Assembly: GCF_002906575.1 (NCBI RefSeq)
Contig: NZ_CP026309.1
Location: 2,108,001 to 2,172,000, forward strand
DNA: 64,000 nucleotides
Origin: Salinigranum rubrum
GTDB taxonomy: Archaea > Halobacteriota > Halobacteria > Halobacteriales > Haloferacaceae
Reading direction: 5' to 3'
A program made the position numbers and the translations under genes. Below the pieces are notes generated by a model that saw only the letters and a list, made by a program, of their open reading frames with translations, was not told the origin of the DNA and did not search any database. This document shows positions 36,641 to 39,977 of this stretch, one piece after another. Position 1 is the stretch's first letter; the number at the start of each line of letters is the position of its first letter.

Positions 36641-37330
36641 TCACTCCGTGTAGTCGGGCCGCTCTTCGTACTCGATAGGGTCCTCGACACCCAACCGCTG
36701 GAACGCTTGTAATCTAAAGGCACAGGAGTCACACGTCCCACACGCCGGTTCCTCGGCCCGGTAACACGACCAGGTGTGTTCGTACGGGACGCCGAGTTCG
36801 AGCCCCCGCTTCGCGATATCGGTCTTCGACCACTCGACGAACGGCGCGTGGAGCCCGATTTCGGTCCCGGGTTTCGTGCCCACGTCGATGACGTTCTGAA
36901 ACGCCTCGAAGAACGCCGGTCGGCAGTCGGGGTAGCCCGCGAAGTCCTCCGAGTGTGCGCCGATAAAAACCGCCGACGCGCCCCGTGCCTCGGCGTACGA
37001 CGTCGCCATCGACAGCAGGTTCGCGTTTCTGAACGGCACGTACGACGTCGGAATCTCGTCGCTCTCGAAGTCCGCGTCCGCGACGTCGATGTCCTCGTCC
37101 GTCAGCGACGAGGCGCCGATGCGGGCGAGATGTTCGGTCTCGACGTGGAGGAAGTCCGCGGCGCCGACGGCGTCCGCGAGTGTGCGGGCCGACTCGAACT
37201 CCTTGTCCTCGGTTCGCTGGCCGTAGGAGGTGTGCAAGAAGAGGGGCTCGTACCCGCGCTCTCTCGCCTCGTAGACGGCCGTCGCGCTGTCCATCCCGCC
37301 GCTGACCAGAATCACTGCGTGCTCTGTCAT
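36641..37330 (-). CDS. queC: 7-cyano-7-deazaguanine synthase QueC
   Basis: QueC turns 7-carboxy-7-deazaguanine into preQ0 with ATP and ammonia; archaea use preQ0 for archaeosine in tRNA. The 229-residue protein has the PP-loop VSGGMDSATA (residues 9-18), the GAHSEDFAGYPDCR segment and a zinc site in CYRAEEPACGTCDSC near 190-204. Third gene of a queD-queE-queC unit, 35 bp after queE. The insertion enzyme ArcTGT and amidotransferase ArcS are not in the window. Confidence 0.95.
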   Translation of the reverse strand: MTEHAVILVSGGMDSATAVYEARERGYEPLFLHTSYGQRTEDKEFESARTLADAVGAADFLHVETEHLARIGASSLTDEDIDVADADFESDEIPTSYVPFRNANLLSMATSYAEARGASAVFIGAHSEDFAGYPDCRPAFFEAFQNVIDVGTKPGTEIGLHAPFVEWSKTDIAKRGLELGVPYEHTWSCYRAEEPACGTCDSCAFRLQAFQRLGVEDPIEYEERPDYTE

Positions 37331-37364
37331 CGTGTCGTGGTGTCTCCGTCGTTCGTCTCTCGCA

Positions 37365-38150
37365 TCAGGTCCCCGGCGCGTCGTTCCAGAGGTCGACGTG
37401 TAGCCGGGGCGTGTACCGGTAGCCGTGTTCGAGCGCCAGTTCCGCCGTGAGGCCGCGGGTCTTCGCCAGTCGCTCGGGGGTCGTTCCCTCGGGCATCAAC
37501 AGCACGTCGGCGTCTCGAATCCGCGCGCTGCTCACCGCTCGAAGTTCGTCGACGAGCGATTCGATTTCCGCGAGGTCCTCGCGGGAGGTGACGACGAACT
37601 TCAGCTGAAAGTCGTACGCCTCGACCAGCGAGGCGAGGGCGTCGTAGTCGAGTCGGTCCCGCTCGTGGCGGTCCCCCCACACGCCGACGTCGGCGTCCCC
37701 GCCCGCAGGCGGGCGCTCCGCCGTCGGAGTCGAGGTGGCGAGTTTCGGCGAGATGGACGCGAGGTCGACTGCCGTGTCTCGAAAGACCGTTCCGTTGGTC
37801 TCGACCGTGGTGTGATACCCTCTGGACGACAGTTCCGAGAGCAGGTCCGCGACGGCGTCGTGGATCATCGGCTCGCCGCCGGTGACGACGACGTGGTCAC
37901 CGCCGTGGGTCTCCACCTGCTCCACCACGTCGGCCACGTCGAACCAGCCGTGAGTGGGTTCCCACGAGGTGTGGTACGAGTCGCAGAACCAACACCGGAG
38001 GTTGCATCCGGAGGTACGGACGAACGTGCTCGGCACGCCGGCCAGCCTCCCCTCGCCCTGCAGCGAGTGAAACACCTCGTTGATGGGGAGCGCCGACTCG
38101 TCGACTTCCTCGGGGGCGTCCAGCCCGCTCGCGTCGGTGTTGACGGGCAT
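37365..38150 (-). CDS. queE: 7-carboxy-7-deazaguanine synthase QueE
   Basis: QueE is a radical-SAM enzyme that contracts 6-carboxytetrahydropterin to 7-carboxy-7-deazaguanine. The 261-residue protein has the FHSLQGEG start, the cluster motif CNLRCWFC (CxxxCxxC) near 51-58, TGGEPM and a conserved SPKLA. Its start codon overlaps the queD stop (ATGA, 38147-38150 region), so the two are translationally coupled. The ATG at 38150 is preferred over the longer open frame, which lies within queD. Confidence 0.95.
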   Translation of the reverse strand: MPVNTDASGLDAPEEVDESALPINEVFHSLQGEGRLAGVPSTFVRTSGCNLRCWFCDSYHTSWEPTHGWFDVADVVEQVETHGGDHVVVTGGEPMIHDAVADLLSELSSRGYHTTVETNGTVFRDTAVDLASISPKLATSTPTAERPPAGGDADVGVWGDRHERDRLDYDALASLVEAYDFQLKFVVTSREDLAEIESLVDELRAVSSARIRDADVLLMPEGTTPERLAKTRGLTAELALEHGYRYTPRLHVDLWNDAPGT

Positions 38151-38608
38151 CAGAACGACGCGCAGAGTTCGCTCGTCTCGGCGACTTCTACCGAAACGTC
38201 GGTGACGTTCTCGCCGAACCGTTCGAGCAACTTCCGTTCGAGGACCACCGCCATCACCTCCGCCGTCGGCGGGTGGTCGAGGACGACCACGGCATCGCCG
38301 TCGCCCGACTGCTCGAACGCTCGGACGAGCGGGTCGCCCGATTCGAGGAGGAACCGGTGGTCCCACTCGTCGACGACGCTCGTGACGTCGCCCTTGTCGA
38401 CGACCCACCCCTCCTCGGTGAGCGTCCCGGTCACGGTGACCGATATCTCGTAGTTGTGACCGTGGGGACGCGAACACTTCCCGTCGTGGTGGAGGAGTCG
38501 GTGGCCGGAACTGATTCGAATCGGCCGGTCGCGGCCGACGTGGAGCGTCCGCTCGCCGGCATCCGACGCGAGAGAGGTGGGGTGTTCTTCGAGTGTTCTT
38601 CCGGGCAT
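38150..38608 (-). CDS. queD: 6-carboxytetrahydropterin synthase QueD (PTPS family)
   Basis: QueD converts dihydroneopterin triphosphate to 6-carboxytetrahydropterin, the first committed step toward preQ0. The 152-residue protein provides the zinc histidines in SGHRLLHHDGKCSRPHGHNY (His at 35, 49 and 51; catalytic Cys45) and WDHRFLLE. A 20-residue N-terminal extension precedes the family core. An ACTTAACC box (38631-38638) lies 27 nt upstream of the ATG, so it leads the leaderless queD-queE-queC operon. Confidence 0.93.
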   Translation of the reverse strand: MPGRTLEEHPTSLASDAGERTLHVGRDRPIRISSGHRLLHHDGKCSRPHGHNYEISVTVTGTLTEEGWVVDKGDVTSVVDEWDHRFLLESGDPLVRAFEQSGDGDAVVVLDHPPTAEVMAVVLERKLLERFGENVTDVSVEVAETSELCASF

Positions 38609-38638: not shown

Positions 38639-38798
38639 GTGCTCATCCGGACCCGTCCCGTACTCGTCCCCACCGACTCACCGAACGCCGTCCGGCGGCT
38701 CTCGCACCCGCCGGATACAGCCGACGGACAAGAGCGTTCGGGACGCCGACGCGCGCTCTCGGGCAACACTGATGGCGTCTGTCAACGAGGGTAGAGGT

Positions 38799-39977
38799 AT
38801 GAGCGATATCGTCCTCGTCGACGGCGCGCGAACCCCGCACGGCACCCTCCTCGGCTCGCTGTCGGACGTCGAGAGCGTCGAACTCGGACGGGTCGCCGTC
38901 GACGGCCTCGCCGAACGGATCGACCTCAACCCCGCGGCGGTCGACTGGGTCTGTCTCGGCAACGCCATCCAGGCGGGCATCGGACAGGTGCCGGGGAGAC
39001 AGGTCGTCGTCGAGTCCGTCCTCCCGGAGACGACGCCGACGACGACGGTCAACGAGGCGTCGGGGTCGGGGCTGCGGGCCATCACGCTCGCCGCGGACCG
39101 CATCGCCTCGGGACGGGTCTCGTTCGCGATTGCCGGCGGCTTCGAGTCGATGACGCGTGCCCCGTGGGTCCTCCCCGGACTCAGAGACGGGAAACGGTAC
39201 GGCGACGTCACGCTGAAGGACTCGATGCTGCTGGACGCGCTCTGGGACGTGAGCCTCGACGTCCACATGGGTGAGATCACGGAGCGCCTCGTCGACCGCT
39301 TCGGCGACGAGTACGACCTTTCGAGACGAGCGCAGGACGAGTACGCGCTGGAGAGCCACCGGCGTGCCGCCCGCGCCATCGACGAGGGGCGGTTCGACGC
39401 CGAAGTGGTCCCGGTCGACACCGGACGCGACGTCGTAAAGCGCGACGAGGGGCCGCGCCCCGACTCGACGATGGACGACCTCGCGCGGCTCTCGCCGTCG
39501 TTCCGACCGGAGGGGACCATCACGCCCGCGAACGCCTCGAAGCTCTCCGACGGTGCCGGGGTCGTCCTGGTAGCCGACGCCGACGCCGCGGCGGACGCGG
39601 GGCTGGAGCCGATGGCCCGACTCGTCGACTACGACTTCGTCTACCGCGCGCCCGACGAGTTCAACGAGGCCGTCGGCGACGTCATCGAACGCGTACTCGA
39701 CACTGCCGAAGTAGAGGTCGACGACGTCGGCGCGTTCTGGGTGAACGAGGCGTTCGCCGCGCAGTCGGTCTACGTGATGCAGCGGCTCGGGATTCCGCGC
39801 GAGCGGATGAACCCCTACGGCGGCGCCGTCGCGTTCGGCCACCCCATCGGCGCGTCGGGCGGGATGCTGGCGACGTCGCTGGCGTACCAGTTCGTCGCCG
39901 ACGACATCGAGTACGGACTCGTCGGAATGAGCCTCGGCGGCGGCGGCGCAGTCATGTCGCTGTGGCAGCGCGCGTGA
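38799..39977 (+). CDS. thiolase-family acyltransferase with Ser instead of catalytic Cys
   Basis: The 392-residue protein is a full-length thiolase fold. Where classical thiolases have the nucleophile in VNxxCGSGL, this one reads VNEASGSGL, putting Ser88 at the Cys position. The catalytic His motif GHPIGASGG and NEAFAAQS are conserved, while the second Cys (usual CxGGGxG) is replaced in MSLGGGGA. Haloarchaeal-type beta-ketothiolases (BktB alpha of Haloferax mediterranei) are known to use a Ser-His-His set, so the enzyme may be active on acyl-CoAs. Those enzymes have an OB-fold beta subunit, which is not adjacent here. ATG 38799 follows a gaggt site; ATG 38772 is an alternative. Confidence 0.85.
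   Translation: MSDIVLVDGARTPHGTLLGSLSDVESVELGRVAVDGLAERIDLNPAAVDWVCLGNAIQAGIGQVPGRQVVVESVLPETTPTTTVNEASGSGLRAITLAADRIASGRVSFAIAGGFESMTRAPWVLPGLRDGKRYGDVTLKDSMLLDALWDVSLDVHMGEITERLVDRFGDEYDLSRRAQDEYALESHRRAARAIDEGRFDAEVVPVDTGRDVVKRDEGPRPDSTMDDLARLSPSFRPEGTITPANASKLSDGAGVVLVADADAAADAGLEPMARLVDYDFVYRAPDEFNEAVGDVIERVLDTAEVEVDDVGAFWVNEAFAAQSVYVMQRLGIPRERMNPYGGAVAFGHPIGASGGMLATSLAYQFVADDIEYGLVGMSLGGGGAVMSLWQRA

Follow-up and report, generated by a model that had tools for sequence, protein, structure and literature searches.

Textbook thiolase catalysis depends on two cysteines, and classical thiolases function without an OB-fold partner. Among haloarchaea, BktB/PhaA enzymes with a Ser-His-His set have been described, which need an OB-fold beta subunit according to a review (PMC7137286). 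A stretch of 64,000 nucleotides from Salinigranum rubrum (the window) contains a thiolase-like gene, whose product the original prediction had equated with these Ser-His-His beta-ketothiolases. Judging from its sequence, this product is instead a variant of classical thiolases with Ser at both Cys positions; it lacks the Cys fingerprints by which the catalytic family is defined, and for that reason it is not filed here as a proven thiolase.

The features of the gene are collected in Table 1. An alternative in-frame ATG at 38772 would lengthen the product to 401 aa, and from this upper ATG the gene occupies positions 2146772-2147974 of the contig. The protein matched Pfam Thiolase_N (PF00108, E = 9.8e-74) and Thiolase_C (PF02803, E = 1.6e-26), and scored 355.1 bits against NCBIfam TIGR01930 (acetyl-CoA C-acyltransferase), above the cut-off of 240.55. 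An AlphaFold2 model built from a 15-sequence alignment (mean pLDDT 79.2, pTM 0.84; residues 119-154 weak, with pLDDT <50) predicted the classical thiolase fold. The top solved match of this model was 4n45, the thiolase of Clostridium acetobutylicum (Z 45.6, rmsd 2.2, 341 residues); the best 50 structural matches ranged from Z 43.6 to 45.6, and Foldseek was concordant, with 33-40% identity in its 50 best rows.

Table 1. Position of the thiolase gene, its diagnostic residues (numbered from 38799) and the adjoining QueC-QueE-QueD cluster in the window.
Feature	Position	Strand	Remarks
Ser-type thiolase CDS	38799..39977	+	392 aa; Thiolase_N + Thiolase_C, TIGR01930
Ser88 codon TCG	39060..39062	+	Nucleophile position; Ser 80/80 clade, Cys 54/54 outgroup
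Glu-Phe-Asn at VMG substrate-size fingerprint (287-289)	39657..39665	+	From alignment; fingerprint role, PMC3406046
NEAF fingerprint, Asn316 (oxyanion hole)	39744..39755	+	78/78 clade rows reaching site
GHP fingerprint, His348	39837..39845	+	78/78 clade rows reaching site
Ser378 codon AGC	39930..39932	+	Base-Cys378 position; Ser 78/78, outgroup Cys 53/53 (rows reaching site)
QueC-QueE-QueD cluster (7-deazaguanine pathway)	36641..38608	-	Just upstream of thiolase

The 392-aa numbering runs level with that of the Zoogloea ramigera thiolase, with Ser88 one before Cys89 and positions 316, 348 and 378 coinciding (residue numbers and roles in the Cys enzymes from PMC3406046). The open reading frame and the alignment agreed on a serine at the nucleophile position, in the motif VNEASGSGL, as had been claimed; this Ser88 (residue 97 if counted from the ATG at 38772) is the counterpart of Cys89 in Z. 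ramigera and of Cys88 in C. acetobutylicum. The stretch MSLGGGGA had also been correctly assigned to the second Cys position, but the residue itself had been missed: in the alignment to solved thiolases the Cys of the CxG loop is also replaced by Ser, LCIGGG in the relatives corresponding to MSLGGG here. As for the two catalytic histidine regions that were said to be kept, GHP with His348 is present, but the other region is NEAF, with Asn316, as in classical thiolases. The term Ser-His-His therefore arose from a misreading, since position 316 is Asn, only His348 is catalytic, and Ser378 comes in addition; the putative catalytic set is Ser88-Asn316-His348-Ser378 ('Ser-His-Ser'). The sole Cys of the protein is residue 61 of 401, which excludes an alternative active-site Cys at the sequence level, and the alignment upholds the claim of a thiolase-fold protein without a catalytic Cys.

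To describe the conservation of these residues, we scanned bacterial and archaeal genomes and kept 80 loci of 173 relatives. Of the 27 haloarchaeal loci among them, all have Ser at the nucleophile position, and the 26 long enough to cover the second position have it at that site too (L033 ends earlier), whereas Cys was found in the 53 other loci and in L006, a Cys-type classical thiolase that the window's genome also keeps (L085 ends before the second position). The addition of 57 stretches from other haloarchaeal genomes gave 84 sequences, which were reduced to 79 distinct homologues plus the window after dropping five duplicates; these 80 rows, two of them truncated before the second site, are the clade rows of Table 1. 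The Cys nucleophile motif of classical thiolases (CxS, 89-91) is replaced by SGS in all 80, and the Cys base motif (CxG, 378-380) by S[VIL]G in the 78 that reach it. Chance or a sequencing artefact was ruled out by these counts for Ser88 and Ser378. The clade also differs from the outgroup at further residues, among them His14, Glu86, Ala87, Tyr282 and Val292 (23, 95, 96, 291 and 301 in the 401-aa numbering). At the CoA site, the His and Gly of HMG are invariant and Arg220 is retained in 78/80 clade rows.

Ser88 is encoded by TCN in 79/79 homologues; Ser378 is encoded by AGY in 76 of 77 homologues and by TCG in the remaining one (L131), which suggests that this serine was kept or regained across a switch of codon class. 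In a 131-row tree the 78 Ser rows formed a single clade (SH-aLRT 100) on a stem of 0.85 changes per column. This tree was obtained by a quick method with the two Ser columns included, and the program flagged a meeting of long branches, those of L070 and the Ser clade. Three short sequences (L033, L162 and L085) were omitted from this tree. The genes are under purifying selection, with dN/dS of 0.06-0.26 across eight pairs. With the Ser pair kept throughout the related genes, the window gene looks like a real conserved variant and not a damaged copy.

Matches of at least 53% identity were found in 75/391 genomes of the class (its own genome and a partial match in G137 counted), spanning six family codes (f1, f3, f4, f6, f9 and f11); among the matches listed, for which no more than four candidates were scored in each genome, the next ones had at most 42% identity. 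From these 75 close genomes, the sequences of five (G102, G016, G169, G212 and G188) were left out, and twelve more genomes were treated as the same as loci already in the set. The homologue in Salinigranum salinum is 80% identical and that of another genome of the same genus code 87%. Three copies (L011, L019 and L028) come from records with plasmid in the title, and for this reason the gene, which is patchily distributed, may be mobile. One Ser-clade copy, L162 (G137:C1:2917452-2918189), has 252 aa without the C-terminal part and is possibly decaying. A DNA pattern for NEASGSG, restricted to TCN codons, was run on 392 genomes of one phylum and matched in ten, seven times inside clade genes and three times (G079, G485 and G472) in unrelated frames; organisms beyond that phylum were covered through the 80 loci kept of 173 relatives.

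To address the OB-fold partner, which had been proposed as something to look for, we searched the genome with PF01796 and obtained four matches, one of which (3612603-3612821) was slightly under the curated cut-off. The nearest lies ~0.49 Mb from 2146772-2147974, and no OB-fold gene was present among the scanned neighbours of the window thiolase, in agreement with the statement that none is adjacent. Three matches directly adjoin thiolase genes that bear HD[MCA]F where the window protein has NEAF, and the fourth is found at the end of an open reading frame (3612519-3613997) with thiolase matches upstream, which we read as HMG-CoA-synthase-like from its sequence. By this fourth domain, PF00108 was matched in two pieces in different frames (G000:C1:3614495-3615153; L092 and L093), and this thiolase may be frameshifted. 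Among the OB-paired enzymes, the one at 1298088 has a Ser nucleophile (TSSSGG), HDMF, GHP, the C-terminal domain PF22691 and an OB-fold neighbour, and resembles the Ser-His-His type that the review reports from Haloferax mediterranei (PMC7137286). Its gene (G000:C1:1298088-1299629; L183) is out of frame from GHP on: the remainder of the thiolase is read in a different frame, while the open reading frame continues into the OB-fold gene. The break stems either from a true frameshift or from an error in the assembly. On our reading of the alignment, HDxF would supply the second catalytic His of the Ser-His-His type.

These data bear on the possibility that the window protein is the alpha subunit of a Ser-His-His beta-ketothiolase that borrows an OB-fold subunit encoded elsewhere in the genome. 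Its nucleophile-position Ser and the presence of OB-fold genes would suit such an arrangement, but we consider it extremely unlikely: residue 316 is Asn and not His, the C-terminal domain belongs to another family (PF02803 here vs PF22691), and all four OB-fold matches adjoin or are fused to other thiolase-type genes, which makes a partner acting in trans unlikely. The match between the window protein and the OB-paired Ser enzyme was weak (22% over 157 columns, E = 0.014). The lack of a partner is to be expected, because classical thiolases act without one.

The reading that we prefer, to which we attach about as much belief as doubt, is that the protein is an enzyme of the classical family that works without a partner and acts on CoA esters, Ser88 being the nucleophile that takes up the acyl group. 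His348 would activate Ser88, which would accept the acyl group; Ser378 would shuttle the alpha proton in the role of Cys378, and Asn316 with a bound water, together with His348, would hold the enolate oxygen. The C-C bond beside the thioester of a 3-oxoacyl-CoA would most likely be cleaved or formed via an O-acyl-serine intermediate, in a pocket that has probably changed shape to fit a different substrate from acetoacetyl-CoA. In favour of this reading are the invariance of both Ser, Asn316 and His348 in the rows that reach them, the single clade under purifying selection, the codon switch at Ser378, the predicted fold and the retained CoA-site residues; the scarcity of acyl-CoA genes in most neighbourhoods and the weak part of the model speak against it. 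The idea of a new partner or substrate stands in part: a differing substrate is possible, given EFN at the VMG site, although this site also varies among the Cys relatives (EFN, EFS, RFN, WFG and similar in the Ser clade; YLF, WFT, WVM, IMG and others in the Cys outgroup), but no generally conserved neighbour was found that could be the partner.

Serine has precedents as a nucleophile in this superfamily, since DpsC, with a Ser-His-Asp triad, self-acylates and transfers acyl groups (PMC12664062), and the haloarchaeal BktB/PhaA use Ser-His-His (PMC7137286). An easy swap is opposed by other reports: Cys88 to Ser abolishes the activity of the superfamily member PhlC (PMC6392133), Cys304 to Ser that of the aldolase CtSal (PMC12329534), and, according to a title cited in PMC3406046, the sulfur of the catalytic Cys is needed for productive binding in a bacterial biosynthetic thiolase. 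Since such a replacement abolishes a related enzyme, the window enzyme must either have been restructured or catalyse a different reaction. PMC3406046 also describes TLP1 of Mycobacterium smegmatis, which is thiolase-like but lacks both the Cys and thiolase activity, and by analogy the window protein could be a non-catalytic CoA-binding or regulatory protein. We regard this as very unlikely, since TLP1 keeps no thiolase catalytic residue, whereas the clade has invariant NEAF and GHP, and Ser at both altered sites in all rows that reach them. Neither a reported activity for the Ser clade nor a paper on a Ser/Ser classical thiolase was found among the open-access matches listed.

The loss of both Cys could also reflect protection, the protein being an isoenzyme that catalyses what short-chain thiolases usually do, its two Cys having been changed to Ser against inactivation by oxidants or thiol reagents. 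Above 100 μM, H2O2 inactivates the thiolases of Zoogloea and E. coli, a loss that is not fully reversible, and the Clostridium thiolase forms a Cys88-Cys378 disulfide (PMC4595758), exactly the two Cys that are gone here. In addition, 34/80 clade rows are free of any Cys (2 of the 34 truncated), and the Cys-type classical thiolase is retained in the same genome. A protective swap would not need the changes at His14, Glu86, Ala87, Tyr282 and Val292, and, as is established chemistry, Ser is a far poorer nucleophile than Cys for thiolysis; we therefore judge this explanation to be unlikely.

The gene neighbourhood was analysed in the window and around the 79 homologues. In the window, QueC, QueE and QueD precede the thiolase on the opposite strand, and a DUF7344 protein and a HAD hydrolase follow it; no functional link to these neighbours was evident, and none of the five acyl-CoA genes considered below was recognised beside it. 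QueC scored above an NCBIfam cut-off, and QueE and QueD under theirs. Across the 79 loci no neighbour was general to the clade, and the neighbours varied by lineage. PyrD, found downstream in 33/79 loci, was rejected as a partner, being a pyrimidine gene whose position looks like shared synteny. Neighbouring open reading frames were called with a home-made composition score, which produced several spurious calls and picked up the thiolase itself in only 74/79 loci.

Acyl-CoA genes in the same direction as the thiolase were detected in a minority of these loci: acyl-CoA dehydrogenase in at least 7 of the 79, MaoC hydratase in at least 12, CaiB CoA-transferase in at least 6, MmgE/PrpD in at least 8 and AMP-dependent CoA ligase in at least 4. 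At least 8/79 loci have two or more of the five and at least 13/79 one or more, these counts being lower bounds from single queries (L024 and L020, E 1e-8) on loci some of which are short or at contig ends; in 71/79 neighbourhoods fewer than two were detected. The set, with not every gene in each locus, surrounds the Ser-thiolase in L016, L019, L020, L022, L024, L126, L130 and L177, five of which are Natrialbaceae by name, the other three lying in the same tree branch. In L024 the MaoC protein is nearest to RipB/Ich (177 bits, cut-off 340), and the CoA-transferase to succinate-glutarate, oxalate and mesaconate CoA-transferases, all under cut-off; a TnpB-type gene (L024:4821-5699) stands between this CoA-transferase and the Ser-thiolase in this Natronorubrum sulfidifaciens locus. 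The set is a candidate operon for the catabolism of C5-dicarboxylates or related compounds. In L136 and L160, the gene immediately downstream, in the same orientation, encodes a short-chain dehydrogenase (one cluster; Pfam on the cluster representative), an arrangement that would fit 3-oxoacyl-CoA chemistry. For this minority of loci alone, the acyl-CoA context speaks for CoA esters as substrates, possibly those of short dicarboxylates.

The same neighbourhoods raise the possibility of another C-C lyase, a 3-hydroxyacyl-CoA retro-aldolase or a hydrolytic retro-Claisen enzyme, without acyl transfer to CoA. Dehydrogenase and hydratase genes are present in them and no 3-hydroxyacyl-CoA dehydrogenase was recognised, a weak sign obtained from the starts of open reading frames and a few profile scans. 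RipB/Ich, to which the MaoC protein of L024 comes nearest though below cut-off, normally makes a product that a lyase then cleaves. Moreover, the thiolase-fold steroid aldolases Sal and Ltp2 carry out retro-aldol cleavage, Sal with Gly for the nucleophile Cys (PMC12329534). However, those aldolases use YD[HC][FY] and an OB-fold (DUF35) partner, while the Ser-thiolase has NEAF and no adjacent partner; the short-chain dehydrogenase adjoins the gene in L136 and L160, and the operon context is missing in 71/79 loci, so that we hold such a lyase to be improbable. An acyltransferase or acyl-CoA hydrolase, in which Ser88 would pass the acyl group from CoA to a non-CoA acceptor or to water, is modelled by DpsC, which hands acyl groups to its carrier protein (PMC12664062). 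We think this quite improbable, as Ser378 is retained at the base position used by C-C chemistry and none of the neighbours occurs widely enough across the loci to serve as the cognate acceptor.

Beyond the preferred reading of a partner-independent enzyme on CoA esters, we tentatively propose a bolder and rather doubtful extension, in which the double Cys-to-Ser lineage of classical thiolases would perform C-C chemistry on CoA esters via O-acyl-serine and a Ser base, with no protein sulfur in the active site. This would break the thioester-to-thioester rule, and the cleavage may be irreversible (a hydrolytic retro-Claisen reaction) or serve as a lyase stand-in in the breakdown of C5-dicarboxylates. 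A haloarchaeal Ser/Ser clade with the other machinery kept is a natural experiment on the need for sulfur and a possible source of oxidant-insensitive enzymes for C-C bonds. It also calls for caution, for the 'Ser-His-His' of the PHA literature is not transferable to every haloarchaeal Ser thiolase.

Among known systems, TLP1 shares with the window protein a thiolase fold without the nucleophile Cys, but it has an extra C-terminal domain besides its lack of kept catalytic residues and of thiolase activity (PMC3406046). The steroid aldolases Sal and Ltp2 have a thiolase-like fold and act with a hydratase, Sal without the nucleophile Cys, but they are SCP-2-like, with a Tyr-based motif and a DUF35 partner (PMC12329534); at the presumed equivalent of YD[HC][FY], HDxF in SCP-2-like rows, the window protein has NEAF. 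The priming ketosynthase DpsC is similar in its thiolase fold and Ser nucleophile, and differs in its ketosynthase-type Ser-His-Asp triad and its carrier-protein acceptor (PMC12664062). The haloarchaeal BktB/PhaA alpha-beta enzymes are also members of the thiolase superfamily with Ser at the nucleophile position, but they need their OB-fold beta subunit (PMC7137286), and in the OB-paired Ser enzyme encoded in the same genome, PF22691 and HDMF stand in place of the PF02803 and NEAF of the window protein. The classical type I/II thiolases (Zoogloea ramigera, Clostridium acetobutylicum, Ralstonia PhaA/BktB) share with the window protein PF00108 and PF02803, TIGR01930, the fold, NEAF and GHP; unlike them, it has Ser in place of both Cys89 and Cys378, and EFN where the Zoogloea enzyme has VMG.
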